Assembly (NCBI RefSeq): GCF_017991995.1
Contig: NZ_JAGOPN010000021.1
Span: forward strand, 1-64,000
DNA: 64,000 bases
Direction: 5' to 3'
Source: Pseudacidovorax sp.
GTDB lineage: Bacteria; Pseudomonadota; Gammaproteobacteria; Burkholderiales; Burkholderiaceae_C
Shown: positions 19,661 through 47,167 of the stretch, in pieces
Layout: each line of letters opens with the position of its first letter
How positions within the stretch are numbered: the first letter of the stretch is position 1
Notes under the pieces: model-generated
What the model was told of the DNA's origin: nothing
What the model saw: only the letters and a program-made list of their open reading frames with translations
The model's database searches: none
Translations under genes and position numbers: made by a program

Positions 19661-19671
19661 TGGTTGGGCCA
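19661..19671. promoter_or_regulatory. FadR-type palindrome (TGGTTGGGCCA), site nearer the Rieske gene
   Basis: TGGTTGGGCCA fits TGGTnnnACCA with one mismatch (G for A). The same 11-mer recurs exactly at 36245. It lies in the -35 region of the Rieske promoter, with a CATACT -10 candidate on the minus strand at 19643-19648. Binding is inferred. Confidence 0.6.
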
Positions 19672-19674
19672 AAG

Positions 19675-19685
19675 TGGTAGAACCA
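19675..19685. promoter_or_regulatory. FadR-type palindrome (TGGTAGAACCA), distal site before the Rieske gene
   Basis: TGGTAGAACCA is a perfect match to TGGTnnnACCA. Its centre is 14 bases from that of the adjacent site, so two dimers could bind side by side. The identical 11-mer recurs at 21516. Confidence 0.7.
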
Positions 19686-19783
19686 ATTCTATGAAGCTCG
19701 CACATCACGTCAAGCACCCCGGCATGGGTTGCGCGCGGAAAGACGAGTGCGATGCGCCGCCGTGGCCTGGCGCGGATCCCGGA

Positions 19784-21481
19784 TCAGGGGATGTCGCCGC
19801 GGGCCATTGCGCTTGCATGCAGCGCGATGCGGTAGGCCTGCGCCATGCCGGGGCCGAGCGTCGTGCCGGGTCCGGGATAGTGGCCCCGCATCAATGAGGC
19901 CGCATCGTTGCCGCAGGCATAGAGCCCCTCAATGGGGCGGCCATGCGCGTCGAGCACGCGACCCTGGGCGTCGGTGGCCAGTCCGGCACTCGATGCTGCG
20001 TCCCCGGGCCAGACCGCTATGGCGGCGTAGGGGCCCGGGCCGACAGGCCCGACGCAGGGGTTCGGCGCATGGCCGGGGTCGCCGTTGAAACGGTCGAACA
20101 CCGATTCGCCCTTGTGGAAATCCGGATCCCTGCCGAGGCGGGCCCAATGGTCGTAGCGCTGCACGGTGTCGGCCAGCGCGGCGGCCGGCAGTTCCAGCGA
20201 TCGCGCGAGGTCGTCGAGTGTCGGAGCCACCACCAGCGTGCGGCGCTCCACCCAGGGCCGCAGGTCGCGCGTGCCCGGCGCGATGGCGCCCAACCCATGG
20301 CGCCGGATAAAGGCGGTACTGCACACCAGCCAGGCCGGCACGGCGCCAGCGCGCACCATGCCCTCGACGAAATGGTGGTACGAGGCCGCCTCGTCCACGA
20401 AGCGACGGCCCTGCCGGTCCACGGCGATCAGGCCGGGCTTGGCGCGATCCAGGAACAGGTGGGGAAAGAGCCCGGTCGATCCGTCCTTGCGATGCACCAC
20501 CGATGACGGCTGCCAGAGGAAGGGCCGCTCCAGGCCCGCCAGCGCAGCGCCTGCCGCGCGGGCAGCGCCCAGGCCATCGCCACGCACCGCCTCGGCGGCC
20601 AGCGCGAGCATGGTCGGCCCGTGCGGGGCGAGGAAATGCCGCAGCGCCGCGTCGTGGCCCACGCCGCCCGTGGCCAGCACCACGCCCAGACGTGCGCGAA
20701 GCACCTGGGTCCGACCCAGCGCTTCCACGCTCGCACCCATCACGCGCCCATCTTCGACCTCGAGGCCGCGCAGCCGCGCGCCGAAGCGCAACTCGACGCC
20801 GGCCAGACGCAGGCTGTGGAGCAGGCGCCCCACGAGCGCGTTGCCCATCACCCATCGGGCTCCGCGCGGATGGCGGACGCGCTCGCGGGCGTGGCGCAGC
20901 ACCAGCCGTGCGCTGTGGACGAATGCCTGCCACGAGCGATAGCGGCCGACCAGCGCCGCGATGTCGGCCTTGCCGACCATCATGCCGCCCAACACCATGA
21001 ACTCGGCCAGGGGTGGGCGCACGCGGCCGAAGTCGGCGCCCAGCAGCCGCCCATCGAAGGGCAGGGGAGAGACTGCCCGGCCCCGCACCGCGGCGCCGGG
21101 CAGGTGTGGGAGGTAGTCCGGATGCATGCCGGCACTGGCGAACCTGACCGCCGTGCGCGCCTCGAGGTACGCCAGCATCGCAGGCCCGCTCGAGAGAAAG
21201 GCCTCGCGCCGGCCATCGTGGTCGGGCTCGCCGATCAGTGCGTCGAGGTAGGTGCGTGCGGCGTCGACCGTGTCGCCATGGCCCGCGGCGACGCCATGCT
21301 GATTGCCCGGGATCCACAGCGTGCCGGCCGAGGTGCCGGTGGTGCCGCCCACCTGCTGGGTGGCCTCGCACAGCACCACGCGCAAACCCTCCAGCGCGGC
21401 GACGAGCGCGGCCGTCATGCCTGCGGCGCCGGCGCCGATCACCAGCAGGTCCGCTTCCGTCTCAGGGATGTCCAGGGTCAT
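19784..21481 (-). CDS. FAD-dependent dehydrogenase (KstD / fumarate-reductase flavoprotein type)
   Basis: 565 aa. The ADP-binding fold is at the N-terminus (DLLVIGAGAAGMTAALVAAL), followed by GGTTGTSAGTLWIP and, near the C-terminus, GLYACGNDAASLMRGHYPGPG, cut here to its ACGNDAASLM and HYPGPG parts. This arrangement, with the Tyr of YPGPG, is that of 3-ketosteroid delta-1-dehydrogenases and related FAD_binding_2 enzymes, which introduce a C=C next to a carbonyl. GAGG precedes the ATG. It is transcribed away from the CoA-transferase operon at 21549, with a perfect FadR-type palindrome in the 67-base gap. A second paralogue is at 33444. The substrate is unknown. Confidence 0.87.
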   Translation of the reverse strand: MTLDIPETEADLLVIGAGAAGMTAALVAALEGLRVVLCEATQQVGGTTGTSAGTLWIPGNQHGVAAGHGDTVDAARTYLDALIGEPDHDGRREAFLSSGPAMLAYLEARTAVRFASAGMHPDYLPHLPGAAVRGRAVSPLPFDGRLLGADFGRVRPPLAEFMVLGGMMVGKADIAALVGRYRSWQAFVHSARLVLRHARERVRHPRGARWVMGNALVGRLLHSLRLAGVELRFGARLRGLEVEDGRVMGASVEALGRTQVLRARLGVVLATGGVGHDAALRHFLAPHGPTMLALAAEAVRGDGLGAARAAGAALAGLERPFLWQPSSVVHRKDGSTGLFPHLFLDRAKPGLIAVDRQGRRFVDEAASYHHFVEGMVRAGAVPAWLVCSTAFIRRHGLGAIAPGTRDLRPWVERRTLVVAPTLDDLARSLELPAAALADTVQRYDHWARLGRDPDFHKGESVFDRFNGDPGHAPNPCVGPVGPGPYAAIAVWPGDAASSAGLATDAQGRVLDAHGRPIEGLYACGNDAASLMRGHYPGPGTTLGPGMAQAYRIALHASAMARGDIP

Positions 21482-21515
21482 TTGCCGCTTACCTCGCGTT
21501 GACGTTGTGCAAGAA

Positions 21516-21526
21516 TGGTAGAACCA
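21516..21526. promoter_or_regulatory. FadR-type palindrome in the divergent promoter of the KstD-like and CoA-transferase genes
   Basis: TGGTAGAACCA is a perfect TGGTnnnACCA site, 23 bases before the CoA-transferase start and 35 before the flavoprotein start. TTGACG at 21499-21504 could be the plus-strand -35, placing the palindrome over the -10 region. Confidence 0.7.
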
Positions 21527-21548
21527 TAGACATTTTCGAGGACGGACA

Positions 21549-22832
21549 GTGTTCGATCAAGCAAGAATCAACGCCTTGCCCGAGCAGCCGGTGCCCGCAT
21601 CGCGCACGCCGCAGGCGCTCGAGGGCATCCGGGTGGTGGACTTCACGCACTTCGTGGCCGGGCCGCTGGCCACCATGACGCTGGCCGACTTCGGTGCCGA
21701 CGTCATCAAGATCGAGGCGCCGGTCAAGGGCGAGGACTTCCGCTACTACCCGCCCATGGATCCGGAGTTGCCCGCCCAGGGCGCGCCCTACATCTGGACC
21801 AACCGCAACAAGCGCAGCATCGGCGTGGACCTCAAGTCGGAGGCCGGCCGCGAGGTCGTACGCGCGCTCATCGAGACCGCGGATGTGCTGGTGGAGAACT
21901 TCTCCACTGGCGTGATGGAGCGCTTCGGCTTCGACTATGAGCGCTGCGCGCAGATGAACCCGAAGCTCATCTACTGCTCGGTGTCGGCCTATGGCCGCTC
22001 CGGCCCCCATGCGGACCGGCTGGGCTTCGACCCCATCGCGCAGGCCGAGAGCGGCTTCATCTCGATGAACGGCTATGCCGACCGCCAGGGCGTGCGCAGT
22101 GGCGCCGCGGTGATGGACGTGGCCACCGCCATGTCCGCGACCAACGCGATCCTGCTGGCGCTGATGGCCCGCACCCGCGACGGCAAGGGCCAGTTCGTGG
22201 AGGTGGCCCTGTTCGACACGGCCGTGCTGATGACCGGCTTCGGCGCCATGCAGCACCTGACCACCGGCTATGAGCCGCAGCGCAACGGCAACACCAGTCC
22301 GGACACCTGCCCGTCGGGCGTCTTCCAGTGCCAGGACATGCCCTTCTACATCAACTGTGGCAACGACGGCATCTTCGTGCGGCTGTTCGAGCAGGTGCTG
22401 GAGCGGCCCGACATCGCCCACGACCCCGTACTGTCCAAGCGCGCCAATCGGCTGCAGCAGCGCGAGTACCTGTTCGACATCATTCAGGCCGAGTTCGGCA
22501 AGCATCCCTGGCGCCACTGGCAGCCGCGGCTGCGCGCGGCGGGCGTGCCCTCGGGCGAAGTGCGCACGCTGGCGCAGGCCCTGGCCTCGGAGGAGGCGCG
22601 CGACCGCCAGCTGGTCACGCGCATCCCGCATCCAGTCAAGGGATGGGTGCCCAACGTGGCAACGCCGCTGCGGCTGTCGCGCACGCCAGCCGTGGTGGAG
22701 CGGGCGGCACCAGCCGTGGGTGCGGACACCGAGGCTGTGCTGGCGGACGCGCTGGGCCTGGACGAGGAACGCATCGAGGCGCTGCGCGCGGCCGGCGCCT
22801 TCGGCGCACCCGAATTGGTGGCCCAGCCATGA
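21549..22832 (+). CDS. class III CoA-transferase (CaiB/BaiF family)
   Basis: 427 aa from a GTG at 21549 with GAGGA upstream. Family signatures: DFTHFVAGPLATMTLADFGADVIKIE near the N-terminus (cut here to its GADVIKIE end), NRNKRSIGVDLKS, and the region SGAAVMDVATAMSATNAIL that should hold the catalytic Asp. These enzymes move CoA between carboxylic acids, activating a substrate without ATP. It starts an overlapping operon with a thiolase-fold protein, its DUF35 partner and an acyl-CoA dehydrogenase. That suggests it activates the acid that this branch degrades. A FadR-type site lies 23 bases before the start. Confidence 0.9.
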   Translation: MFDQARINALPEQPVPASRTPQALEGIRVVDFTHFVAGPLATMTLADFGADVIKIEAPVKGEDFRYYPPMDPELPAQGAPYIWTNRNKRSIGVDLKSEAGREVVRALIETADVLVENFSTGVMERFGFDYERCAQMNPKLIYCSVSAYGRSGPHADRLGFDPIAQAESGFISMNGYADRQGVRSGAAVMDVATAMSATNAILLALMARTRDGKGQFVEVALFDTAVLMTGFGAMQHLTTGYEPQRNGNTSPDTCPSGVFQCQDMPFYINCGNDGIFVRLFEQVLERPDIAHDPVLSKRANRLQQREYLFDIIQAEFGKHPWRHWQPRLRAAGVPSGEVRTLAQALASEEARDRQLVTRIPHPVKGWVPNVATPLRLSRTPAVVERAAPAVGADTEAVLADALGLDEERIEALRAAGAFGAPELVAQP

Positions 22833-22894
22833 ACGCACCGGTCCAGGCACGAGTGCGAATCCCCGGGCGCCCCGCGCGGAGGGCCGCCCAGTGA
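22829..22894 (+). CDS. possible 21-aa coupling ORF between CoA-transferase and thiolase-fold genes
   Basis: The ATG overlaps the CoA-transferase stop (ATGA at 22829-22832) and the TGA overlaps the GTG of the next gene (GTGA at 22891-22894). The predicted peptide (MNAPVQARVRIPGRPARRAA plus Gln) is basic and matches no family I know. Its only visible role would be to carry ribosomes across the 58-base gap. It could equally be a chance product of high-GC sequence. Confidence 0.3.
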   Translation: MNAPVQARVRIPGRPARRAAQ

Positions 22895-24084
22895 GCCGCG
22901 CCGTCGCCATCGTCGGCGCGAGCGCCATTCCGGTCGGTCGTCACCAGACTGCCGACGACGCGGTGCTGCAGACGCTGGAGCACGAGATCATGACCCGGCT
23001 GGTGGTCGAGGCCGTGCGCGACGCTGGCGTCGACAAGCAGGACATCCAGAGCCTGGTCTTCACGCTGCCGCGGCCCTACACGCGGCAGAAGTACTTCCAT
23101 ACCTTCCTGATGGGCCAGCTGCGGCTGGCCTGCCGCGGGAACGTGATGGAGGTGATGGGCAACGGCATGACGGCCGCCCTGGCCTTCGACCAGGCGTGCA
23201 ACGACATCCTGCTGGGCCGGGCCAATGTGGCGCTGGCCCTGGGCATCAACATGGAAAGCGCGGTGTCCGCCACCGAGCACATGATGAGCAGCATGCGCAC
23301 CACCGGCGACGTGGACTTCCACACCTCCGCCGGCTTCACGCCCATTGCCTGGTACGCCATGGACGCCATGCGCTACATGCACGAGCATGGCGCGACGCGC
23401 GAGCAGATCGCGGCGGTGGCGGTCAAGAACCGGCACCATGCCTCGCTCAACCCGCTGGCCCAGTTCCGCAAGCCGATCACGCTGGACGAGGTGGTCGCGC
23501 AGCGGCCCATCGTCGAGCCGCTGGGGCTGTACGAGGTGCCGCCGCGCGGTGACGGGGCCGCCTGTCTGGTGCTGGCCAGCGAAGACGTGGCCAAGTCGCT
23601 GGGCCGGCCCTACGTGCTCGTGCGCGGCCGCGGCTTCTGCCACGACGGCTCGCACCAGATCAGCGACGTGCCCAATGACATGATCGGCTTCACGGCGGCG
23701 CGCCAGGCCGCGCGGGACGCGTATCGGCAGGCGGGCATCGGTCCGGAGCAGCTCGATCTGGCCGAACTCTATGCCCCCTGCACCATCGTGGAGGTGCTGG
23801 TGAGCGAGGCCATCGGCCTGCTGCCACGCGGCCAGGGTGCGCGGGCGGCGGCCGAAGGCCAGACGCGGCTCGGCGGGCGCATTCCCATCTCGACTTCAGG
23901 TGGCCTCACCTCCCGCGGGCATCCGGCCTATGTGACCTCGCTCTACAACTATGTCGAACTGGCCGAACAGCTGCGCGGCCGGGCCGGCGAGCGGCAGGTG
24001 AAGAACGCGCGCTTCGGCCTGGCCACGGGCGAACTGGGTAACTACAACGCCGCACTCATCCATGTCATGGAGGCCGTGCAATGA
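22891..24084 (+). CDS. thiolase-fold protein (SCP2/Ltp type, no Cys nucleophile)
   Basis: 397 aa from the GTG at 22891; the frame is open upstream but reads as non-protein. The thiolase fold: AIVGASAIPVGRH, VAVKNRHHASLNPLAQF, LAELYAPCTIVEVL, and C-terminal STSGGLTSRGHPAYVTS. At the nucleophile position, where thiolases have CASGG, it has VMGNGMTA, so Cys is missing. GHP is kept, unlike the 15284 paralogue. The downstream gene (ATGA overlap) is a DUF35 protein, so the pair probably forms an Ltp2-ChsH2-like aldolase or a related acyl-CoA lyase. Confidence 0.85.
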   Translation: MSRAVAIVGASAIPVGRHQTADDAVLQTLEHEIMTRLVVEAVRDAGVDKQDIQSLVFTLPRPYTRQKYFHTFLMGQLRLACRGNVMEVMGNGMTAALAFDQACNDILLGRANVALALGINMESAVSATEHMMSSMRTTGDVDFHTSAGFTPIAWYAMDAMRYMHEHGATREQIAAVAVKNRHHASLNPLAQFRKPITLDEVVAQRPIVEPLGLYEVPPRGDGAACLVLASEDVAKSLGRPYVLVRGRGFCHDGSHQISDVPNDMIGFTAARQAARDAYRQAGIGPEQLDLAELYAPCTIVEVLVSEAIGLLPRGQGARAAAEGQTRLGGRIPISTSGGLTSRGHPAYVTSLYNYVELAEQLRGRAGERQVKNARFGLATGELGNYNAALIHVMEAVQ

Positions 24085-24512
24085 CGCAGCCGCTGCCCCA
24101 ACTCCCCGTCGCCGAGGACCGGGCCTATCCGCCGCGGGCATCGGCGTTCACGAGCACCTTCTGGCAGGCGCTGCGCGAAGGCCGCTGGACGAGCACACGC
24201 TGCAAGTCCTGCGCACGCCAGACCTTTCCGCCCAAGCCGGTGTGCCCGCACTGCTGGTCCACGGACGTCGAGTGGAGCCCGCTGGGGCGCACCGGCACGC
24301 TCTATTCGTGGACGCGCATCCATGCGGCGCCTGCGGTGTTCGCGCCCGAAGCGCCTTATGCCTGCGGCATCGTCGATCTCGACGACGGCCTGCGCCTGGC
24401 CTGCCGCCTGGTCGAGGACCCCCAGCGACCGCTGGCCATCGGCCAGACCGTGGAGATGGTGGTGCTGCAGTACTGGGACGGTCCGCTGTTCGCCGCGCGG
24501 CCGCTGGGCTGA
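24081..24512 (+). CDS. DUF35 OB-fold / zinc-ribbon protein
   Basis: 143 aa. The start overlaps the thiolase-fold stop (ATGA). FTSTFWQALREGRWTSTRC leads into the zinc ribbon (CKSC...CPHC, about residues 44-61), then an OB-fold (GTLYSWTRIHAAP; GQTVEMVVLQYW). It is the expected partner of the 22891 protein, where the zinc ribbon and OB-fold typically contribute to the acyl-CoA channel. It is the second of three such pairs in the island. Confidence 0.87.
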   Translation: MTQPLPQLPVAEDRAYPPRASAFTSTFWQALREGRWTSTRCKSCARQTFPPKPVCPHCWSTDVEWSPLGRTGTLYSWTRIHAAPAVFAPEAPYACGIVDLDDGLRLACRLVEDPQRPLAIGQTVEMVVLQYWDGPLFAARPLG

Positions 24513-24561
24513 GCACGGCCTTCACCTTCAACCCGATTCGATACACAGGAGAAAGAAAGCC

Positions 24562-25722
24562 ATGAGCTTGTTCAACACCACCGGCCTCACCGACGACCAG
24601 CGCATGATGCGCGAGGGCGTGCTCGACCTGCTGGGCCGCCATCTGCCCTGGGAGAAGATCCGCAAGATGGACGAGGCGCGCGAGTTCCCGCTCGAGGCCT
24701 ACGAGGCGCTGGCCGATGCCGGCTACATCGGCCTCTTCTATCCGGAAGAGCTGGGCGGCACCGGCGGCTCCTACCGCGACATCGCCATCTTCCTGGAGGC
24801 CATGGGCTACCACTACACCGGCATCGCCCAGGCCATCACCACCTCGGCCGTGTATGCGGGCATGCACATCGCCAAGTTCGGCAGTCCCGAGATGAAGAAG
24901 GACCTGGTGCCCCGCATCATCGCGGGCAAGGCCAAGCTGGCGCTGTGCATGTCGGAGCCCGGCACCGGCTCCGACGTGGCCGGCGTCAAGACCTTCGCGC
25001 AGCGCGAGGGCGACGACTACATCCTCAACGGCAACAAGGTGTGGATCACCTGCGGCCATGTGGCGGATTACTTCGTCGTCATCACCCGCACCGACCGCGA
25101 TGGCGCCAACCGGCACCAGGGCATCAGTACCTTGCTGGTCGATGCCAAGACGCCCGGCGTGACGGTGCGGCCACTTCAGATGCTGGGCCGCCGCACTTCG
25201 CACGCCAACGAGGTGTTCTTCGAGAACGTGCGCGTGCCGGCGCAGAACCTGTTCGGCGGCGAAGGCCGGGCCTGGAAGAACATCATGAGCTGCCTGGGCC
25301 TGGAGCGGCTGGGCCTGGCCGCCATCTCGGCCGGTCATTGCTTCAAGATCACCGAATACGCCCGCGACTATGCCAAGGACCGCGTGCAGTTCGGCCAGCC
25401 CATCTCGCAATTCCAGGTGATCCAGCACAAGCTGGCCGACATGCTGATCCTGTCGGAGACGGCGCGCCAGATGGTGTACCGCGCGGCCGATGTGCTCGAC
25501 TCCGGAACACCCGCGGTGACCGAAGCCTCCATCGCCAAGATCGTCGCCACCGACAACAACTTCAAGTGCGCCGACATCGGCATGCAGATCATGGGCGGCG
25601 CGGGCTACTCCATGGAATACGACATGCAGATGTTCTTCCGCGACTCGCGCGTGGGCCCCATCGGCGGCGGCACCAACGAAATCCAGCGCAACATCCTGGC
25701 CAAGCAGATGGATTTGGGCTGA
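24562..25722 (+). CDS. acyl-CoA dehydrogenase
   Basis: 386 aa from the ATG at 24562, preceded by AGGAGAAAG. FAD/substrate motifs: LCMSEPGTGSDVAGVKT (about 128-144), WITCGHVADYFVV (161-173) and the C-terminal IGGGTNEIQRNILAKQM. The usual Glu of the C-terminal YEGT motif is replaced by Gly. Glu248 in GLERL matches the alternative catalytic base of isovaleryl- and long-chain acyl-CoA dehydrogenases, so the enzyme should be active. It forms the alpha,beta-double bond of an acyl-CoA, passing electrons to ETF. It is the last gene of the 21549 operon; a terminator follows at 25744. Confidence 0.92.
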   Translation: MSLFNTTGLTDDQRMMREGVLDLLGRHLPWEKIRKMDEAREFPLEAYEALADAGYIGLFYPEELGGTGGSYRDIAIFLEAMGYHYTGIAQAITTSAVYAGMHIAKFGSPEMKKDLVPRIIAGKAKLALCMSEPGTGSDVAGVKTFAQREGDDYILNGNKVWITCGHVADYFVVITRTDRDGANRHQGISTLLVDAKTPGVTVRPLQMLGRRTSHANEVFFENVRVPAQNLFGGEGRAWKNIMSCLGLERLGLAAISAGHCFKITEYARDYAKDRVQFGQPISQFQVIQHKLADMLILSETARQMVYRAADVLDSGTPAVTEASIAKIVATDNNFKCADIGMQIMGGAGYSMEYDMQMFFRDSRVGPIGGGTNEIQRNILAKQMDLG

Positions 25723-25812: not shown

Positions 25813-25823
25813 TGGTTCAACCA
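25813..25823. promoter_or_regulatory. FadR-type palindrome before the acyl-CoA dehydrogenase pair operon
   Basis: TGGTTCAACCA is a perfect TGGTnnnACCA site inside ATTGGTTCAACCAT. It is followed directly by the AT-rich CATAATAAT, a -10 candidate, and lies 51 bases before the start at 25874. The identical 11-mer recurs at 31493, 41183 and 41279. Confidence 0.75.
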
Positions 25824-25873: not shown

Positions 25874-27037
25874 ATGGACCTGGAATTCACACCGGCGCAG
25901 CGCGCCTTCCGTGCCGAGGTACGGGCCTTCATTGAAGAGCGTCTGCCGGCGGACATCCGCGCGCGTCTGCGCGCCGGGCATCCGCCGCGCAAGCAGGACA
26001 CCGTGGCGTGGCAGCGCATCCTCAATGAGCGCGGCTGGGCGGCGCCGCATTGGCCGGCGCGCTATGGCGGCGCCGAGCTGGGGCAGATGGAGCGCCTGAT
26101 CCTCATGGACGAGCTCTACCGCGCGCCAGCACCGCTACCGCAGGTGTTCAACCTCACCATGCTCGGCCCGGTGCTGATGAAGTTCGGCACGCCGGCGCAG
26201 TGCGACCACTTTCTGCCGCGGCTCGCCAACCTCGACCTGTGGTTCTGCCAGGGCTTCTCGGAGCCGGGCGCCGGCTCGGACCTGGCCTCGCTGCGCACCC
26301 GCGCCGAGCGCCGGGGCGAGCACTATGTGGTCAACGGGCAGAAGATCTGGACCACCACTGCCCACCTCGCGGACTGGGTGTTCGCGCTGGTACGCACCGA
26401 CCCCGAGGCCCGCAAGCAGGCCGGCATCTCCTTCCTGCTGATCGACCTGAAGTCACCGGGCATCACCATCCGCCCCATCCAATCCATCGACGGCGGCCAC
26501 CATCTCAACGAGGTGTTCTTCGACGACGTGCAGGTGCCCGTGGCCAACCTGGTGGGCGAGGAGAACAAGGGCTGGGACTGCGCCAAGTTCCTGCTCGGCA
26601 ACGAACGCACCGGCATCGCCAACGTCGGGCTGTGCCGCGAGCGGCTGGACCTTGCACGCCACATGGCAGCCCAGGCGCTGCCGCAAGGTGGGCGGCTGAT
26701 CGACGATGCCGGGCTGCGCGCCGAGATGGCGGCACTCGATGCGGAGATCCGTGCACTCGAGCTGACCAACTACCGCTTCCTGCTCACCCCCGCCGAGCAG
26801 CAGGCGCTGCCGGCCTTCGCGTCGGTGCTCAAGCTCAAGGGCGTGGCTTTGCAGCAGGCGGTGAATGCGCTGCTGGCGCGGCTCGCCGGCCCGGCCGGCC
26901 TGGAGCAGCGCGAGGGCGACGAGGAACTCGTGCACGGCCCGCTGGTGCCGCGCTACTTCTACTCGCGCGCCGCCAGCATCTACGGCGGCACCAGCGAAGT
27001 GCAGAAGGACATTCTGGCCAAGGCCATCCTGGGATGA
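25874..27037 (+). CDS. acyl-CoA dehydrogenase, probably one subunit of a heteromeric pair
   Basis: 387 aa from the ATG at 25874 with AGAGGAC upstream. Motifs: CQGFSEPGAGSDLASLRT (about 122-139), KIWTTTAHLADWVFALV, EVFFDDVQVP, GNERTGIANVG and C-terminal ASIYGGTSEVQKDILAKAI. The gene 13 bases downstream is another, more divergent dehydrogenase. Adjacent unequal pairs of this kind encode alpha2beta2 enzymes such as FadE28-FadE29 in steroid side-chain catabolism. It is the first gene of an operon with a ligase, a kinase and a DUF6285 protein. Confidence 0.92.
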   Translation: MDLEFTPAQRAFRAEVRAFIEERLPADIRARLRAGHPPRKQDTVAWQRILNERGWAAPHWPARYGGAELGQMERLILMDELYRAPAPLPQVFNLTMLGPVLMKFGTPAQCDHFLPRLANLDLWFCQGFSEPGAGSDLASLRTRAERRGEHYVVNGQKIWTTTAHLADWVFALVRTDPEARKQAGISFLLIDLKSPGITIRPIQSIDGGHHLNEVFFDDVQVPVANLVGEENKGWDCAKFLLGNERTGIANVGLCRERLDLARHMAAQALPQGGRLIDDAGLRAEMAALDAEIRALELTNYRFLLTPAEQQALPAFASVLKLKGVALQQAVNALLARLAGPAGLEQREGDEELVHGPLVPRYFYSRAASIYGGTSEVQKDILAKAILG

Positions 27038-27050
27038 GGCAGGGAACCCG

Positions 27051-28187
27051 ATGAATTTCGAACTCGACGATGAACAACGCGCGCTGCAGGACAGCCTGAC
27101 GCGCCTGATGGCCGAGCGCTACGGCTTCGAGCAGCGCCGTACCCATGCCGCCAGCGAGGACGGGCAGGACCCGCAAACCTGGCAGCATCTGGCCGAGCTG
27201 GGTGTCACTGCGTTGGCGGTGCCGTCGGCCCACGGCGGCTTCGACGGTGGCGCCCGCGCCCTGCTGCCGGTGATGCAGGCCCTGGGTGGGGCCCTGTGCC
27301 TGGAGCCGCTGCTGCCCCAGGTGCTGGCTGCGACGGCGCTGCGACTGGGCGCCGATGAGGCGCTGTGCGCGGAGCTGCTGCCCGCCCTTGCCGACGGCAG
27401 CGCCTGCATCGCGTGGGCCCATGACGAAATCGCCGGCCGCCACGCGCCCTGCTGGATCGAGACCCGCGCCACGCGCCGCGTTGGAGCGTGGGTGCTCGAT
27501 GGCGCCAAGGCCCATGTGCTCGGCGCGGCCTCGGCCGGCCACGTCATCATCAGTGCCCGCACCGACGGCAGCGCGGACAGCCCGGCCGGGCGCGCCCTCT
27601 TCCTCGTCGATGCCGGTGCCCCCGGGCTGCAATGGCGCACCTACCGCATGGTGGACGACACGCCGGCCGCCGAACTGCGGCTGGCGGCCGTGCCGGCCCG
27701 TCCCCTGACCGATCCCTCCGATGGCGATGCGGGCGGCCGTGCCATCGACGGTGCGGTCGCCATGGGCATCGCGCTGGCCTGCGCCGACATGCTGGGCGCG
27801 GCGGAGACCGCCAACCGGCTCGCGGTCGACTACCTTCACACCCGCAAGCAGTTCGGCCGGGCCATCGGCGAGAACCAGGCGCTGCGTCATCGGGTGGCCG
27901 AGATGCGCGTGGATCTCGAGATGGCCCGCAGCATGGCCATGGCCGCCGCCGTCGCGGTCGACCTTCCCGAAGGCGACGAGGCGGCCCTCGACCTGCACCG
28001 TGCCAAGCTGTGCGTCGGCCGCCATGCGCGCGAGGTGGCGCATGGCGCCATCCAGCTGCACGGCGGCATCGGCATGACCGAGGAATACGCCGTCGGCCAC
28101 TGCCTGCGTCGCATCCACGTGATGGACCAGCTGTTCGGCGACAGCGGTGCCCATGCGTCGCGCCTCGCGACCGCGCTGGCGGCGTGA
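27051..28187 (+). CDS. acyl-CoA dehydrogenase-like protein, probable partner subunit
   Basis: 378 aa from the ATG at 27051, 13 bases after the previous stop. The fold is recognisable (MNFELDDEQRALQDSLTRLM; LAVDYLHTRKQFGRAIGENQ; IQLHGGIGMTEEYAVGHCLR). The middle domain lacks the clear SEPGxGSD FAD motif of its neighbour, having instead a degenerate WVLDGAKAHVLGAASAG stretch, and no C-terminal GGTxExQ motif. This asymmetry fits a non-catalytic or half-site subunit in a heterotetramer with the 25874 product. It could also act alone with an unusual specificity. Confidence 0.88.
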   Translation: MNFELDDEQRALQDSLTRLMAERYGFEQRRTHAASEDGQDPQTWQHLAELGVTALAVPSAHGGFDGGARALLPVMQALGGALCLEPLLPQVLAATALRLGADEALCAELLPALADGSACIAWAHDEIAGRHAPCWIETRATRRVGAWVLDGAKAHVLGAASAGHVIISARTDGSADSPAGRALFLVDAGAPGLQWRTYRMVDDTPAAELRLAAVPARPLTDPSDGDAGGRAIDGAVAMGIALACADMLGAAETANRLAVDYLHTRKQFGRAIGENQALRHRVAEMRVDLEMARSMAMAAAVAVDLPEGDEAALDLHRAKLCVGRHAREVAHGAIQLHGGIGMTEEYAVGHCLRRIHVMDQLFGDSGAHASRLATALAA

Positions 28188-28247
28188 CGGGCGCCGATGA
28201 CCGGTCCCGAAAGAAACATCAGAGACAACGAGCAGAGCAAGACGGCC

Positions 28248-36826: not shown

Positions 36827-36864
36827 GGTGGTGGCCGCACGGCTGCAGGCCATGCATTTTTCAA

Positions 36865-37822: not shown

Positions 37823-37842
37823 GGGTCTGGAGAGCTGGGGCG

Positions 37843-38670
37843 TCAAGCGGCCCGCCGGGCCGCGACGCGTTTGGTCGCTGCCTTCTTGCTTTCGCTTTCG
37901 AGGTAGTCGCTGATGAGCTTGAGGTGGGCCGTCATGGCCGCCGCCGCGGCCGAGGCATCGCGGGCGCGCAGGTGCGTGAGCACCTTGCGGCGCACCTGCA
38001 TGAAGTCCTTGCGCGGACGCGGGTCCACCTGGGCCAGCAGGCCGCGGATGATTTCCGACAGCGCATCGACCATCGCCGTGAACACCTCGTTGTGAGTGGC
38101 CTCGGCGATGAGTTGGTAGAAGCGGATCACCGAATGGGTGTTGCGCGAGCCGTGGCCTTGCCGGAACAGGTCGGTGTGGTAGTCGATGTCGGCCTCGATG
38201 GCGTCGATCTCCTCTTCGGTCGCCCGTTCGCAGGCCAGGCGGATGGCCACGGCCATCAGCTCGATGCGGGCCTCGGTGACGTGAGCGATCGACGCCTGCT
38301 GCAGCGAGACCATGTCGCGCACGGACTGGGTGAGGCTGGTGGGTTTGCCGTTGCGGATGAAGAAGCCGCCGTTCAGGCCGGTGAGGGCCTCCACCACACC
38401 CGCCGACTCCAGGCTGCGCAACGCCTCGCGCACGGCGCTTCGGCTGACGTCGAACTGCTCGGCCAGGTCCTTTTCGGCGGGCAGCCGGTCGCCGGGGCGC
38501 AACTCGCCCCGGGCCAGCTGTTCGCGGATCTGACTGGCGACCGCCTCGAAGGTGCGACGCGTGCGCACCGGCTGGAACAGGGGCGTGACCGCCGGTTCTG
38601 CGAGGGCGGCTGTGGCGCCGGGGCCGGCCTTGGCGCGCGGGATGGACGGGGAGATGCGCTTCGTCGGCAT
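37843..38670 (-). CDS. FadR-subfamily GntR transcriptional regulator (FCD domain)
   Basis: 275 aa from the ATG at 38670, preceded by AAAGAGG; the longer open frame upstream is not protein-like. Winged helix: VASQIREQLARGELRPGDRL and FDVSRSAVREALRSLESAG. FCD positions: HSVIRFYQLIAEATHNEVF and LTHLRARDASAA. It is the upstream member of a tandem of similar regulators and lies 79 bases after the crotonase gene on the same strand. It may be co-transcribed with the thiolase-fold/DUF35/crotonase genes. It is a candidate for binding the TGGTnnnACCA sites of the island. Confidence 0.9.
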   Translation of the reverse strand: MPTKRISPSIPRAKAGPGATAALAEPAVTPLFQPVRTRRTFEAVASQIREQLARGELRPGDRLPAEKDLAEQFDVSRSAVREALRSLESAGVVEALTGLNGGFFIRNGKPTSLTQSVRDMVSLQQASIAHVTEARIELMAVAIRLACERATEEEIDAIEADIDYHTDLFRQGHGSRNTHSVIRFYQLIAEATHNEVFTAMVDALSEIIRGLLAQVDPRPRKDFMQVRRKVLTHLRARDASAAAAAMTAHLKLISDYLESESKKAATKRVAARRAA

Positions 38671-38749
38671 TGGATGAACCTCTTTGGGCAATCGTAATAC
38701 AGCGACGAGGCGTCTCCGGGCCCCAGGCCCGACGCTCGGGCGATCGCGC

Positions 38750-39544
38750 TCAGGCGGCTGGCGGAAAGCCGCGGTACGGCGGTGGCCGCCGGGCCAGCAT
38801 GGCCTCGATGGCCTCGCGCGGCTCCGGCGCGGCGAAGGCGGCGGCCTGGCTGCCCGCCTCCATGCTGAACAGGGTCTGCTGGTCCGCATCGAGCGAGGCA
38901 TTGAGCGCGGCCTTGGTCAGGGCCAGGGCCGTGGGCGCGGCCTGGGTGAGGCTGCGGGCGATGGCGGCGGCACGGGCCTCCAGCGCCTCGCTGGCATGCA
39001 CCTCCATCGCGATGCCCAGTCGCTGCGCCTCGTGCGCATCGATGTCCCGGGTGGAGAAGATCAGCTCCTTGGCCCGCTGCACGCCCACCGCGCGCGGCAG
39101 CAGGTACATCGCCCCCAGGTCGGGCACCAGCCCCAGCCGCAGGTAGGCCATGCAGAAGCGCGCGCGCTCGGAGGCCAGCACGATGTCGGCGGTGAGCGCC
39201 AGCGCGAAGCCCGCGCCCATGGCCGGGCCGTCCACGGCCGCGATGACCGGTCGCCCCAGATGGAGCATGTCCTGGATGAAGCGCAGCCCCCCGCGGATGC
39301 GTTGCTGCCAGTAAGCCGGCCCGGAATCCAGGTGCTCCTTCAGCACATGCAGGTTGCCGCCGGCACAGAAGGTGCCGGGCGTGGCGGTGAGCACCAGCAC
39401 GCGGATGCCGGGGTCGTCGCGCACCTGTTCCAGCACGGCCATCAGGTCGGCGCGCAGCTGGGCGTCGAAGGGGTTGTGGATGGCAGGGCGGGACAGGCGG
39501 ACCCAGCCGACCTGCTCGCGCACCTCGAACTGCAGGGTGTCCAT
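38750..39544 (-). CDS. enoyl-CoA hydratase/isomerase (crotonase) family protein
   Basis: 264 aa from the ATG at 39544. Signatures: VGWVRLSRPAIHNPFDAQL, GTFCAGGNLHVL (first oxyanion strand), AAVDGPAMGAGFALALTADI (second) and [18 protein letters not shown]. The last motif holds the acidic residue position used in catalysis. It closely resembles the 43171 crotonase in this motif ([17 protein letters not shown]), so the two are paralogues. It follows the DUF35 gene by 13 bases and probably acts in the same branch as the 39961 thiolase-fold protein. Confidence 0.9.
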   Translation of the reverse strand: MDTLQFEVREQVGWVRLSRPAIHNPFDAQLRADLMAVLEQVRDDPGIRVLVLTATPGTFCAGGNLHVLKEHLDSGPAYWQQRIRGGLRFIQDMLHLGRPVIAAVDGPAMGAGFALALTADIVLASERARFCMAYLRLGLVPDLGAMYLLPRAVGVQRAKELIFSTRDIDAHEAQRLGIAMEVHASEALEARAAAIARSLTQAAPTALALTKAALNASLDADQQTLFSMEAGSQAAAFAAPEPREAIEAMLARRPPPYRGFPPAA

Positions 39545-39557
39545 GGGCGGTCGTCCT

Positions 39558-39956
39558 TCAGGCCGGTGTGAACATGGGCACCAGCGTGCCGTCCTCGGCA
39601 GGCTTGAAGCACACCTGAACGCGCTGGCCGATGTGCAGCGCGTCGAGGTCGCAGTCCACGATGTTGGTGAGCATGGTGATGCCCTCGTCCAGCGCCACGT
39701 AGGCGATGGCATAGGGAATGGGGCCTGCGCGGCGCGTGACGCTGACGCTGTAGATCGTGCCCCGGCCCGACAGGCTGCGCCACTCCGTGTCGCCCTGGCA
39801 GAAGGGGCAGACCGGCCGCGGATACCAGTGCGGCTTGTGGCAGCTCGTGCACTGGCGCGTCAGCAGCAGGTGGTCGGCGGTGGCGGCCCAGAAGCGCTCG
39901 GTGGCGGCATCGTGCGGCAGCGTGGTGAGGGGGCGTTCGGTGTAGGGCGTCGCCAT
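39558..39956 (-). CDS. DUF35 OB-fold / zinc-ribbon protein
   Basis: 132 aa. ATERFWAATADHLLLTRQC leads into the zinc ribbon CTSC...CPFC (about residues 36-53), then an OB-fold (GTIYSVSVTRRAG; IGQRVQVCF). It lies 4 bases after the thiolase-fold gene, completing the third thiolase/DUF35 pair of the island. It should bind the 39961 protein and help it handle an acyl-CoA. Confidence 0.88.
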   Translation of the reverse strand: MATPYTERPLTTLPHDAATERFWAATADHLLLTRQCTSCHKPHWYPRPVCPFCQGDTEWRSLSGRGTIYSVSVTRRAGPIPYAIAYVALDEGITMLTNIVDCDLDALHIGQRVQVCFKPAEDGTLVPMFTPA

Positions 39957-39960
39957 GATG

Positions 39961-41136
39961 TCATTCCCTTTCCATGATGAGCGTTGCGCTGCCGTGGCGC
40001 GAGCCGAGCAGGCCGCCCGTGCCCTGCGCCAGCGCCAGCCGGCAGTCGGGCACCTGCACCTTGGGATGGGCCTCGCCGCGCAGCTGGCGCACCGCCTCGA
40101 TCACCTTGGTGATGCCGCCCCGGTTGGCCGGGTGGTTGTTGCACAGGCCGCCACCGTCGGTGTTGAAGGGCAGCCTGCCCACGCCGGAGATCAGATTGCC
40201 GTCGGCCACGAAGCGGCCGCCCTGGCCCTTGGGGCAGAAGCCGAGGTCTTCCAGCTGCATCAGCACCGTGATGGTGAAGCTGTCGTAGATCGAGGCGTAC
40301 TGGATGTCGGCCGGCTTCACGCCGGCCTCCGCAAAGGCGGCCGGGCCGGACACGGCGGCGCCCGACCAAGTCAGGTCCACCGCGCCGCCGAGCTGGCCCT
40401 TGATGGTTTCGCCGGCACCCAGCACCCGCACCACGGGCCGCTTGAGCCGGCGTGCGATCTCGGGCCGCACCACCACCAGGGCGCCGCCGCCGTCGCTCAC
40501 CACGCAGCAGTCGAGCTTGTGCAGCGGGTCGGAGATCAACGGCGAGGCCAGCACCTCCTCGACCGTCACGGTCTCCCGCAGCATCGCATGCGGGTTGTGC
40601 TGGGCATGCTGCGAGGCGGCCACCTTGATCCAGGCGAGCTGTTCGGAGGTGGTGCCGTACTCGTGCATGTGGCGCGCGGCGGCCAGGGCGTACATGTTGA
40701 CCGTGACCGGCGAATACGGCATCTCCCACGCCGCGTCGGGCGTGGCGGCCGTCACCAGGCGGGCGCCGACGCCGACACCGCTGCCGCCTTCGGTACGCGG
40801 CCGCCCGGCCAGGGTGATCAGCGCCACGTCGCACTTGCCCGCGGCGATGGCCTGGGCGGCATGCGACACGTGGATGAGGTAGGCCGAGCCGCCGGTGTCC
40901 GTGGTGTCGACTTGGCGCAGGCGGGTCAGGCCCAGGTAGTCGGCCATGCTGTTGGCGCCGAGGCCGGGCGCGTCGCCGGCACAGAAGTAGCCGTCCACGT
41001 CCTGCAGCGTGAGGCCGGCATCGGCCAGGGCGCCGCGCGCGCATTCGGCATGCAGCTGGGCCACGGTCTTGTCCGGCGCCTTGCGCGTCGGATGCTCGAA
41101 GGCCCCTGCGATGCAGGCCTTGCCCTTGATGGTCAT
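39961..41136 (-). CDS. thiolase-fold protein (SCP2/Ltp type, no Cys nucleophile)
   Basis: 391 aa from the ATG at 41136, behind CAGGAGAAAC. Thiolase-fold signatures: KACIAGAFEHPTRKAP, VAASQHAQHNPHAM, IYDSFTITVLMQLEDLGF and NTDGGGLCNNHPANRGG. The nucleophile loop reads DTTDTGGSAY, so Thr replaces Cys. Together with its DUF35 neighbour it probably forms an acyl-CoA lyase rather than a thiolase. It is the first minus-strand gene of a divergent promoter region with two perfect FadR-type sites (41183, 41279). Confidence 0.87.
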   Translation of the reverse strand: MTIKGKACIAGAFEHPTRKAPDKTVAQLHAECARGALADAGLTLQDVDGYFCAGDAPGLGANSMADYLGLTRLRQVDTTDTGGSAYLIHVSHAAQAIAAGKCDVALITLAGRPRTEGGSGVGVGARLVTAATPDAAWEMPYSPVTVNMYALAAARHMHEYGTTSEQLAWIKVAASQHAQHNPHAMLRETVTVEEVLASPLISDPLHKLDCCVVSDGGGALVVVRPEIARRLKRPVVRVLGAGETIKGQLGGAVDLTWSGAAVSGPAAFAEAGVKPADIQYASIYDSFTITVLMQLEDLGFCPKGQGGRFVADGNLISGVGRLPFNTDGGGLCNNHPANRGGITKVIEAVRQLRGEAHPKVQVPDCRLALAQGTGGLLGSRHGSATLIMERE

Positions 41137-41182: not shown

Positions 41183-41193
41183 TGGTTCAACCA
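41183..41193. promoter_or_regulatory. FadR-type palindrome, thiolase-fold side of the divergent promoter
   Basis: TGGTTCAACCA is a perfect TGGTnnnACCA site, 47 bases before the minus-strand start at 41136. On that strand it is followed by TATTAT (41181-41176), a good -10 candidate, so the site lies in the promoter spacer. Confidence 0.75.
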
Positions 41194-41272: not shown

Positions 41273-41289
41273 TAATATTGGTTCAACCA
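41273..41289. promoter_or_regulatory. -10 element and FadR-type palindrome of the SDR operon
   Basis: TAATAT (41273-41278) is a plus-strand -10 candidate. It directly abuts TGGTTCAACCA (41279-41289), a perfect TGGTnnnACCA site within TTGGTTCAACCAA. The expected transcription start falls inside the palindrome, which fits repression. The start codon is at 41311. Confidence 0.75.
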
Positions 41290-41310: not shown

Positions 41311-42084
41311 ATGAATCCTCTTGTCACTCTGCAGGACCGCACGGTCGTCGTCACCGGCGCCGGCCAGGGCATCGGCAAGGCGCTGACCGAGCTGATCGTT
41401 CAGCTCGATGGCCGCGTGGTGGCGGTGGACATGAACGGCGACGGCCTGCGCTCCGCCCTGGCCGAGCTGCCCGCCGACCGGGTGATGACGGTGGTCGGCA
41501 GCGTGACCGACGCCGCGCTGGCCACCCGCGCCGTGGACGAGGCGGTGGAGCGCTTCGGTGCGCTGCACGGCCTGGTCAACAACGCCGGCATCACCCGCCC
41601 GGCCATGATCGAGAAGATGACCGACCAGCAATGGAAGGACGTGATCGACGTGCACCTCACCGGCAGCTTCTACTGGCTGCAGGCCGTGGGCCGGCACATG
41701 GTGGCGCGGTCGCGGGGCGGCGACAGCCGCGGCGGCTCGATCATCAACATCTCTTCGGACGCGGGGCGCAAGGGCTCCATCGGCCAGATCAACTACGCGG
41801 CCGCCAAGGCCGGCCTGCTGGGCATGACGATGACCGCCGCCCGCGAATGGGGCCGCTACAACATCCGCACCAACTCCATCTGCTTCGGCGTGGTGGAAAC
41901 GCCCATGACCGAAGTGGTGCGCGGCGAGAAGTTCAAGGACGGCATGCTGGCGCAGATTCCCCTGGGCCGCTGGTCCACCGCCGAGGAGGCGGTGCGCATG
42001 CTGGCCTTCCTGCTGTCGGATGCAGGCAGCTACATGACCGGCCAGCACATCGGCGTCAACGGCGGCTTCCACATCAGCCTCTGA
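41311..42084 (+). CDS. short-chain dehydrogenase/reductase (SDR)
   Basis: 257 aa from the ATG at 41311. GGAG at 41298-41301 is correctly spaced for it, whereas an ATG at 41296 has no ribosome site and nearly touches the operator. NAD(P)-binding GAGQGIG at 16-22, NNAG at 90-93, Ser148/149, and Tyr162-x3-Lys166 (YAAAK) are all present. Acidic D40 after the second strand suggests NAD(H). It probably oxidises a hydroxyacyl-CoA or a ring alcohol. It starts an operon running to 45860 with an AttH-like protein, crotonase, MaoC protein and NMO-type flavoprotein. Confidence 0.92.
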   Translation: MNPLVTLQDRTVVVTGAGQGIGKALTELIVQLDGRVVAVDMNGDGLRSALAELPADRVMTVVGSVTDAALATRAVDEAVERFGALHGLVNNAGITRPAMIEKMTDQQWKDVIDVHLTGSFYWLQAVGRHMVARSRGGDSRGGSIINISSDAGRKGSIGQINYAAAKAGLLGMTMTAAREWGRYNIRTNSICFGVVETPMTEVVRGEKFKDGMLAQIPLGRWSTAEEAVRMLAFLLSDAGSYMTGQHIGVNGGFHISL

Positions 42085-42109
42085 GCGCCGCGACCCGCCA
42101 GGAGCCCCC

Positions 42110-45860
<3,751 letters not shown>

Positions 45861-45869
45861 GGGGGCGCG

Positions 45870-45896
45870 AGCAAGGCCGTCATGCCCGTCCTTGCT
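45870..45896. terminator. hairpin between convergent genes, candidate terminator
   Basis: Perfect 7-base arms AGCAAGG (45870-45876) and CCTTGCT (45890-45896), followed by GTTTG. It lies between the NMO stop (45860) and the minus-strand CoA-transferase stop (45930). The T-tract is short, so strength is uncertain. Confidence 0.5.
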
Positions 45897-45929
45897 GTTT
45901 GATCCAGCCGAGGCAAGCGGCGCGCCCGT

Positions 45930-47078
45930 TCAGCCCACGCCCGCGCCGCGCAGGGCGATGATGTCTGCGTCGCCGTAGCCGAGTTCGCGCAGGATCGCCT
46001 CGGTGTCCGTGCCAGCAGCCACCGGAGCGCGGGGCCGTTCGGGCGCGGAACGGCTGAAGCGTGGCGCCGGCGCCGGTTGCGTCAGGCCGTCCTGCGTGTA
46101 GAAGGCGTTGCGCGCCTTCTGGTGCGGATGGTCGGGCACCTCGTCCAGAGCCAGCACCGGCGCGAAGCACACGTCCGTGCCTTCGAGCAGGGCACACCAT
46201 TCGTCGCGTGTCTTCTGGGCGAAGCGGTGGGCCAGCTCGGCCTTCAGCGCCGGCCAGCGGCTGGCATCGTGCTGCGGCCAGGCCGCAGGGTCTTCGATGC
46301 CCAGCTTGTCCAGCAGCAGGGCGTAGAACTGCGGCTCGATGCTGCCCAGCGAGATCCAGCCGCCATCGGCGCAGCGGTAGCTGCCGTAGTAGTGGCTGCC
46401 GCCGTCCAGCACGCCGGTTCCGCGTGGCTTCGTGCGGCCGGCGGCCTGCACGCTGTGGAACAGCGTCATCAGCAGCGACACGCCGTCCACCATGGCCGCA
46501 TCGACCACCTGGCCCTTGCCGCTTCCCCGTGCCTCGAACAGCGCGCAGGCGATACCGAAGGCCAGCAGCATGGTGCCGCCGCCGTAGTCGCCCACCAGGT
46601 TGAGCGGCGCCACCGGCGCCTCGGGCGTTCCGATCATGCCCAGAGCGCCGGCCAGGGCGATGTAGTTGATGTCGTGCCCTGCGGCCGTGGCCAGGGGGCC
46701 TTCCTGGCCCCAGCCGGTCATGCGGCCATAGACCAGGCGCGGGTTACGCGCCAGGCAGGCGTCGGGCCCCAGCCCCAGCCGTTCCATGACGCCCGGGCGA
46801 AAGCCTTCCACCATCACGTCGGCGCCCTCGATCAGGCGCAGCAGCACCTCTCGGGCGGCGTCCTGCTTGACGTCGAGGGCGATGGAGCGCCGGCCGCGGC
46901 GCGAGATGTCCTTGTGCGGCGGCACCATGCCGCCGCCGCCGCCGCCGCCGGCGGCTGGGCCGGGGCGGTCGACGCGGATCACCTCGGCGCCCATGTCGGC
47001 CAGCAGCATGGCGGCTAGCGGGCCGGGGCCGATCGAGGCGATCTCGATCACGCGTACGCCGTGGAGCGGGCCGGCCAT
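45930..47078 (-). CDS. class III CoA-transferase / alpha-methylacyl-CoA racemase-like
   Basis: 382 aa from the ATG at 47078; the frame stays open to 47168 but GPLHGVRVIEIASIGPGPLA is the usual family start. Signatures: AAMLLADMGAEVIRVDRPG, RSIALDVKQ, LARNPRLVYGRMTGWGQEGP with the family GWGQxGP, and HDINYIALAG. The catalytic Asp position is in LVGDYGGGTM. GWGQxGP and DINY are more typical of alpha-methylacyl-CoA racemases than of formyl-CoA transferases, so it may epimerise a methyl-branched acyl-CoA. A run of seven Gly (residues ~48-54, GCC/GGC codons) near the active site is unusual. Confidence 0.87.
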   Translation of the reverse strand: MAGPLHGVRVIEIASIGPGPLAAMLLADMGAEVIRVDRPGPAAGGGGGGGMVPPHKDISRRGRRSIALDVKQDAAREVLLRLIEGADVMVEGFRPGVMERLGLGPDACLARNPRLVYGRMTGWGQEGPLATAAGHDINYIALAGALGMIGTPEAPVAPLNLVGDYGGGTMLLAFGIACALFEARGSGKGQVVDAAMVDGVSLLMTLFHSVQAAGRTKPRGTGVLDGGSHYYGSYRCADGGWISLGSIEPQFYALLLDKLGIEDPAAWPQHDASRWPALKAELAHRFAQKTRDEWCALLEGTDVCFAPVLALDEVPDHPHQKARNAFYTQDGLTQPAPAPRFSRSAPERPRAPVAAGTDTEAILRELGYGDADIIALRGAGVG

Positions 47079-47156
47079 CAGCGTGGCGCTCCGAGGGCGC
47101 GGATGGGTGTGTGGACAAGCATGGCGTTCTTCCAGGGCAGCGAATATGATTGTGAA

Positions 47157-47167
47157 TGGCTGTACCA
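47157..47167. promoter_or_regulatory. FadR-type palindrome (weaker) before the racemase-like gene
   Basis: TGGCTGTACCA has one mismatch to TGGTnnnACCA. It is 79 bases upstream of the minus-strand start at 47078 and is the right-most such site seen. Confidence 0.5.

Follow-up and report, generated by a model that had tools for sequence, protein, structure and literature searches.

The operator of E. coli FadR is of the TGGT...ACCA type. For the FadR subfamily of GntR regulators, the accessible part of a survey names LldR, PdhR, GlcC, DgoR and FadR, counts 151 betaproteobacterial regulators and links residues of the helix-turn-helix domain with operator bases: G/C in the TKGT box accompanies Arg28 and Gly59, and A/T next to the centre accompanies Asn39 (PMC4494728). 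Here we describe a putative regulon of this type in Pseudacidovorax sp., encoded in the first 64,000 nucleotides of contig NZ_JAGOPN010000021.1 (the window), where ten TGGT-N3-ACCA-like palindromes are distributed over one catabolic island. Judging from sequence comparisons, we put the probability that these palindromes are the operators of a real shared regulon of an FCD-type regulator, whatever that regulator is, at roughly 0.93; GntR_A, one of the regulators encoded in the island, is probably the regulator, or one of the regulators, that would bind them.

Direct checking of the sequence located the ten 11-mer palindromes listed in an earlier note on this DNA exactly where the note had placed them: six have a perfect TGGT-N3-ACCA core (19675, 21516, 25813, 31493, 41183 and 41279) and four a core with one mismatch (19661, 36245, 36865 and 47157), which agrees with the A/T-rich TKGT-N3-ACMA operator of the FadR subfamily. 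The recurrence of identical 11-mers was likewise as described, with TGGTTCAACCA occurring four times and TGGTAGAACCA and TGGTTGGGCCA twice each. The perfect core is written TGGTNNNACCA in the following, the A/T-flanked form WWTGGTWSWACCAWW and the consensus of the weight matrix used to score sites TAATGGTTCAACCATTA; matrix cut-offs between 10 and 15 were set by eye and are given at each count. According to a codon-usage gene call, all ten sites are intergenic; their flanks are A/T-rich and, judged by eye, unlike one another beyond about 3 nt. Gene spacing and strand define ten predicted transcription units with 33 called genes between 12968 and 47078, each with at least one site, so that the earlier statement that nearly every operon is preceded by a palindrome was correct in substance but understated (10/10). 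Of the three regulator genes said to lie inside the span of the sites, those at 37001 and 37843 do so, whilst the one at 17493 falls just outside. The distance from site to start codon is 18-78 nt with the starts chosen here (18-79 previously), where the MaoC start (7, 11 or 38 nt) and the SDR start (21 or 6 nt) are ambiguous and the Rieske start as set by the gene caller makes the distance 54 nt longer.

Cores with up to one mismatch are mildly enriched in the window (22 against a shuffle mean of 13.6, with 3 of 100 shuffles reaching 22), and 11 of the 12 such matches outside the set of ten lie within called genes; as evidence on its own this class of core was dropped, being too common genome-wide. 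The whole-genome scan proposed in the earlier note shows the sites to be concentrated in the island: the perfect core TGGTNNNACCA occurs at 29 places in 6,240,837 bases (reversed control pattern: 167), six of them within the 27.5-kb span, for which the 23 outside cores give an expectation of 0.10 (P ~1.4e-9; 3e-7 when corrected for the choice of window). Of these 23 cores, 18 are coding and five intergenic, and not one is bordered on each side by two A/T positions, compared with four of the six in the island. Allowing up to one mismatch, WWTGGTWSWACCAWW is found at eight places in 6.24 Mb, all eight in the island (reversed control: two), and misses both TGGTTGGGCCA sites; WWTGGYNNNRCCAWW occurs at 14 places, eight in the island, with one of the six others having a TGGT half and lying in coding sequence. 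Amongst the matches listed, TGGTAGAGCCA recurs at C6:471498, without A/T flanks and under a long open reading frame of coding-like composition. As the flanked patterns were fitted to the sites of the island itself, they gauge confinement and do not constitute independent discovery; the non-circular support thus consists of the perfect-core count and of other genomes. A wide scatter of equally good sites in coding regions was looked for in the 6.24 Mb and not found.

The sites are conserved at orthologous promoters in a sister species of the same genus (G177), in which the island is present with insertions: each of the ten orthologous places has a site, the tandem pair being present in full, with nine of ten cores and 108 of 110 core bases identical, while the neighbouring DNA has diverged. 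When five promoter regions with six sites were aligned from G000, G177 and Comamonadaceae bacterium ALPHA2B, with two sequences only in the case of the acyl-CoA dehydrogenase promoter, identity extended to 65 of 66 core columns versus 324 of 590 other columns; as alignment columns are not independent, the Fisher P (5e-15) is only indicative. In more distant relatives conservation is partial: ALPHA2B exhibits five sites at equivalent promoters in a 20.8-kb locus, and the Rieske orthologues of nine of 11 distinct loci have a site of at least 15 within 150 nt upstream (12 entries checked, L041 and L076 being the same DNA), with the gene from G177 preceded by a site pair. Confinement of the flanked pattern to the regulator's locus is complete in the source genome (8/8) and in G122, a member of another genus with most of the island genes in a different order, where all eight genome-wide matches lie within 51 kb of one contig. 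It is less strict in G177 (10 of 13 matches on the island contig), in Piscinibacter sakaiensis (G053; 13 of 14, on contigs C43, C64 and C66, all carrying island homologues) and in G097 (two of three beside island genes); the only match in G158 lies beside island genes. Named locus L054 is the same DNA as contig C64 of G053, and L076 the same as the G158 stretch, and each was counted once in mixed counts. No site cluster was found in G071, which belongs to the same genus and has no GntR_A at E<=1e-40 (one isolated match versus three for the reversed control), and stretch L160 contains no site of at least 14. The earlier proposal of a shared FadR-subfamily regulator acting over about 28 kb is thus supported by confinement, by conservation in G177, by recurrence in G122 with reordered operons and by the lack of a cluster in G071.

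Three further loci were observed outside this group of genomes. A Delftia acidovorans plasmid typed as conjugative (NZ_CP065697.1; L133:14992-30678) carries the Rieske module, GntR_A and operators beside an IS1071 transposase and, beyond IS1071, a short GntR_B-like gene together with an acyl-CoA dehydrogenase gene that has its own operator; the layout looks like that left by insertion of the element into such an island or next to it. Nocardia miyunensis (L070) combines a 40-43% homologue with eight sites of at least 13.5, of which several resemble TGGTTTAACCA, within 20.7 kb; this is perhaps a related actinobacterial regulon. The alphaproteobacterium Bradyrhizobium betae (L073) has a 67% GntR_A homologue with four sites, which suggests horizontal transfer.

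Three regulators come into consideration, GntR_A, GntR_B and GntR_C (Table 1), all exhibiting the winged helix (PF00392) and the FCD domain (PF07729) by which the FCD group of the FadR subfamily is recognised; GntR_A and GntR_B are encoded in tandem and are 37% identical in a local alignment. With helix-turn-helix numbering that we fitted from the LPxER motif, GntR_A has Arg, Asn, Thr and Gly at positions 28, 39, 40 and 59 and hence all three residues linked to the operator motif (Arg28, Asn39 and Gly59). GntR_B has Lys, Ser, Ala and Gly and is missing two of the three, and GntR_C is missing one (Arg28, Asn39, Asn59). The four residues of GntR_A recur in 28 of 30 homologue entries, amongst which two loci appear twice; one of the remaining entries is not covered at these positions and the other, G055 (44%), has Val at position 40. 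As the named loci had been found with peptide patterns, one of them including Asn39/Thr40, only homologues found otherwise count as independent: the six aligned homologues and the four plasmid records examined, out of 11, all agree on the residues, G055 not fully. The homologues of GntR_B vary at two contact positions (Lys or Arg at 28; Ser, Ala, Thr, Gly, Asn or Pro at 39), and in all six GntR_C homologues examined position 59 is Asn or His. Identity of GntR_A with the fatty-acid FadR orthologue was rejected, since both FadR equivalog models score far below their cut-offs (TIGR02812, fadR_gamma: 50.2 versus 249.2; NF003444: 51.7 versus 189), and amongst the best 25 families per protein no NCBIfam regulator model reached its cut-off. 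A fourth FCD-type GntR regulator is encoded outside the island at about 7990-8793 on the + strand.

The occurrence of sites follows that of GntR_A. The named loci comprise the best 80 of 483 loci with GntR_A homologues, in stretches reaching at most 10 kb to each side: a site of at least 15 is present at 7/7 loci with at least 60% identity to GntR_A, 13/13 with 50-59%, 4/5 with 40-49% and 23/55 below 40%, the numbers of sites in these classes being 24, 20, 12 and 37 versus 2, 0, 1 and 20 in reversed sequences. All 20 loci with at least 50% identity therefore exhibit such a site (44 sites versus two in the reversed control), and in 14 of these 20 no GntR_B or GntR_C match is found in the stretch, although either may lie elsewhere in those genomes; in G097, GntR_A occurs without GntR_B or GntR_C in 39 kb and the sites are kept. 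At 12 of 24 loci checked, the start of the GntR_A match is overlapped by a site of at least 14 or has one no more than 300 nt upstream.

In the Rieske and SDR promoters, a -10-like hexamer is immediately followed by the operator (TTGACG-16-TAGAAT and TTGACG-18-TAATAT, respectively), and a position directly after or overlapping the -10 element is typical for repression. With a simple match count as promoter score, searched from about 30 nt upstream to 20 nt downstream of the operator start, a hexamer pair of at least 8.5 is found at nine of ten operator-gene pairs, a set that omits 19661 and includes 21516 twice. Amongst 3000 random positions 1.9% reach this score, and amongst other upstream positions 14 of 78 do; at 9.8 or more the counts are 3/10 versus 5/78, and at 10.3 or more 2/10 versus 0/78. 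No good pair was found for the TctC gene at 31522 (7.5). The position of operators at or beside promoter-like elements suggests repression by occlusion: a GntR_A dimer would bind TGGT-W-S-W-ACCA with its A/T flanks and so deny RNA polymerase access to the ten units. Release of the repressor would follow once a metabolite of the pathway, probably a carboxylate or the corresponding CoA derivative, had bound to the FCD domain. Both the repression and the response to an inducer are our inference, and a ligand of the carboxylate type is suggested by the FCD family. Being the last gene of unit 8, behind the operator at 41183, GntR_A should limit its own expression, and autoregulation is hence likely.

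Several observations weigh against a GntR_A regulon as set out here. The motif is generic for the FadR subfamily and, given the site frequency in the group below 40% identity, also partly generic in our own counts, and the GntR_A query gave 68 first-look candidates in the source genome. The one-mismatch core class alone is common genome-wide (TGGTNNNRCCA: 176 forward and 144 reverse matches, perfect cores included), the weight matrix was built from the island sites so that its scores in their own genome are circular, the peptide pattern VSRNTLRE with which named loci were found favours Asn39/Thr40, and the A/T-rich flanks of the operators raise the hexamer scores. Amongst 200 genomes of the family, the strictest pattern occurs in five of ten GntR_A carriers (E<=1e-40) and in eight of 190 non-carriers. 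G115, with a 46% homologue, has weaker sites only (best 17.2), its single flanked-pattern match lying elsewhere, and G044, with a 35% homologue, has no site of at least 12.5 in 39.5 kb. Upstream of the Rieske orthologues of C. metallidurans CH34 and Noviherbaspirillum L067, no site of at least 10 was found within 200 nt; L067 has GntR_C and a GntR_B-like homologue without a clear GntR_A orthologue, and Noviherbaspirillum L069, with the same combination, still has a site before its Rieske gene. The Rieske gene of G053 is preceded by weak sites only (13.6 and 12.8), and of 29 other orthologous gene starts, picked by hand and some possibly operon-internal, 21 have a site of at least 12 nearby and eight have none.

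As for the nature of the sites, the recurrence of identical 11-mers, the shortness of the core and the genome-wide frequency of the one-mismatch class could be taken to indicate palindromes that arose by chance or through duplication of a promoter segment. We consider there to be hardly any prospect of this being so: the shuffle and genome counts and the span P values led us to reject chance, the sites are conserved in relatives, and flanks that are dissimilar beyond about 3 nt speak against duplication. A different role for the same sites would be activation, in which an FCD protein together with its inducer switches the units on; some FCD regulators do activate, such as CitO with citrate according to the part of the source available (PMC4746285). 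We judge this unlikely, since at the strongest promoters the operators directly follow or overlap -10-like elements.

As for the identity of the regulator, it is possible, if doubtful, that GntR_B reads the same operators, alone or with GntR_A, such that two signals are integrated or the two proteins are redundant. GntR_B lies directly upstream of GntR_A in the source genome, G177, ALPHA2B, G122, CH34 and L052; in G122, C. metallidurans CH34 and the Delftia plasmid it and the acyl-CoA dehydrogenase operon are divergently oriented, an operator being placed in between or at the gene start, and in G053 a GntR_B homologue is found near operators on contig C66 whilst the GntR_A homologue lies on another contig. 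The accessible part of a study of C. glutamicum describes GntR1 and GntR2 as functionally redundant (PMC2230225). The variable contact residues at positions 28 and 39 amongst GntR_B homologues speak against this role, as does the persistence of sites with GntR_A in stretches lacking GntR_B (14 of 20 named loci, and G097). A two-piece GntR_B-like match in G177 (L033:10405-10882), divergent from the acyl-CoA dehydrogenase gene in the same layout as the longer homologues of G122 and CH34, is possibly a remnant. GntR_C appears very unlikely as the regulator: it is encoded inside a unit with two operators, belongs to the FCD family and has both Arg28 and Asn39, but carries Asn at position 59 (Asn or His in homologues), and it is Gly at this position that accompanies G/C in the TKGT box according to the accessible survey text (PMC4494728). 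No GntR_C homologue was found in the stretches of G097 and G158 or in the 40 kb that surround the regulators of G122, and on these two grounds GntR_C was rejected as the main regulator. A more far-reaching picture, tentative and on the improbable side, is that GntR_A and GntR_B read the same operators and combine two metabolite signals, the island being an operator-tagged mosaic whose units have been exchanged amongst different species, megaplasmids and one conjugative plasmid, many of them keeping the GntR_A operator, so that the regulon would survive rearrangement.

Table 1. Regulators, predicted operators and predicted transcription units of the island, with coordinates in the window.
Feature	Coordinates	Strand	Content or position	Basis or remark
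GntR_A	37001..37846	-	GntR + FCD regulator, proposed repressor	Pfam GntR 2.3e-19, FCD 1.6e-22; homologues co-occur with sites
GntR_B	37843..38670	-	paralogous GntR + FCD regulator directly upstream of GntR_A	Pfam GntR 8.8e-20, FCD 8.8e-16; start by codon usage
GntR_C	17493..18299	-	third GntR + FCD regulator, inside Rieske operon	Pfam GntR 2.3e-13, FCD 6.5e-22
Predicted operator TGGTTGGGCCA	19661..19671		gene-proximal member of tandem pair 5' of Rieske operon	identical in G177
Predicted operator TGGTAGAACCA	19675..19685		tandem pair, directly 3' of -10-like TAGAAT (TTGACG-16-TAGAAT)	identical in G177
Predicted operator TGGTAGAACCA	21516..21526		common to divergent FAD oxidoreductase (-) and CoA-transferase (+) units	identical in G177
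Predicted operator TGGTTCAACCA	25813..25823		5' of acyl-CoA dehydrogenase/ligase operon	site check and promoter alignment
Predicted operator TGGTTCAACCA	31493..31503		5' of TctC binding-protein gene	site check and promoter alignment
Predicted operator TGGTTGGGCCA	36245..36255		5' of TctC / FAD oxidoreductase unit	site check and promoter alignment
Predicted operator TGGTAGAGCCA	36865..36875		5' of MaoC gene, one-base overlap with -10-like TAGAAT	promoter alignment
Predicted operator TGGTTCAACCA	41183..41193		5' of thiolase...GntR_B-GntR_A operon	site check and promoter alignment
Predicted operator TGGTTCAACCA	41279..41289		directly 3' of -10-like TAATAT, SDR operon (TTGACG-18-TAATAT)	promoter alignment
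Predicted operator TGGCTGTACCA	47157..47167		5' of CoA-transferase 45930-47078	G177 equivalent L163:4486 differs at 2/11 bases
Unit 1	12968..19625	-	Rieske oxygenase, GntR_C, TctC, thiolase, ChsH2-like OB-fold protein, nitroreductase, TctC	two most distal genes may be separate
Unit 2	19784..21481	-	FAD oxidoreductase, 3-ketosteroid-dehydrogenase-like	
Unit 3	21549..25722	+	CoA-transferase III, thiolase, ChsH2-like OB-fold protein, acyl-CoA dehydrogenase	
Unit 4	25874..31230	+	two acyl-CoA dehydrogenases (PimC/PimD-like), acyl-CoA synthetase, APH-family protein, DUF6285 protein	
Unit 5	31522..32487	+	TctC binding protein	
Unit 6	32557..36205	-	TctC, FAD oxidoreductase, enoyl-CoA hydratase-like protein	
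Unit 7	36347..36853	-	MaoC-type hydratase	
Unit 8	37001..41136	-	thiolase, ChsH2-like OB-fold protein, enoyl-CoA hydratase, GntR_B, GntR_A	
Unit 9	41311..45860	+	SDR, DUF7064/7065 protein, enoyl-CoA hydratase, MFE2-type hydratase, nitronate-monooxygenase-like protein	
Unit 10	45930..47078	-	CoA-transferase III	

The gene set fits the breakdown of a cyclic carboxylic acid via CoA thioesters, as far as its annotation allows us to predict, and all units may serve one pathway, with which the enzymes are compatible. Two flavoproteins resemble 3-ketosteroid dehydrogenases, and a thiolase gene is adjoined by one for a ChsH2-like OB-fold protein in three places (14832-16507, 22891-24512 and 39558-41136), a pairing known from steroid side-chain cleavage enzymes. 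In an NCBIfam scan of 17 of the 30 non-regulator called island genes (best 25 families per protein), the cut-off was reached only by two general 'subfamily' models, acyl-CoA synthetase PRK12406 and thiolase-domain PRK08142, the resemblances to PimC/PimD and to cyclohexanecarboxylate and ketosteroid-dehydrogenase families staying below it. The best match of the Rieske oxygenase in the PDB is 7fhr (E 2e-248); the accessible part of one paper mentions a Rieske oxygenase from C. metallidurans CH34, there without its substrate (PMC12445078), which is presumably the enzyme matching 7fhr. Between units 4 and 5 lies a perfect 18-nt inverted repeat with 128 nt between its arms (31229-31392), and its 17-nt arm is found at three further genomic positions, in two cases as an inverted pair; this suggests a small repeat element.

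As the ten units of this 34-kb stretch are predicted to switch together, they should be studied as one system. If the prediction is true, this joint control covers several CoA-pathway enzymes along with three thiolase/ChsH2-like pairs, two flavoproteins of the ketosteroid-dehydrogenase-like type and a Rieske oxygenase that has a close relative of solved structure. Related gene sets carrying the same operators are found in C. metallidurans CH34, in Variovorax, in Piscinibacter sakaiensis and on the Delftia plasmid, and these offer practical hosts in which to look for the substrate and the inducer. The operator sequence could further serve as bait for placing unannotated catabolic genes.

Literature searches for the gene set or the regulator retrieved no description of this regulon, although the search was limited and absence from print is not claimed. 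In comparison with the FadR-subfamily regulons covered by the available survey text (PMC4494728), the locus shares the GntR winged helix, the A/T-rich palindrome TKGT-N3-ACMA and the placement of sites in divergent promoters and before operons, but differs in having ten sites before ten units in one island and an A/T-flanked form that is found nowhere else in the genome. E. coli FadR belongs to the same helix-turn-helix family, and GntR_A is distantly similar to it (1hw1/1e2x, E ~1e-7); unlike E. coli FadR, GntR_A exhibits an FCD domain, and its predicted targets are an island of CoA-type degradation enzymes rather than fad genes. In case of C. glutamicum GntR1/GntR2, there are likewise two paralogous GntR regulators, possibly with common targets as far as the accessible text goes (PMC2230225), whereas GntR_A and GntR_B are tandem, 37% identical, and their common binding is a prediction only. 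Thus, we regard the locus as a new regulon of an already known regulator type, notable for the number of its operators and for their confinement to one island.

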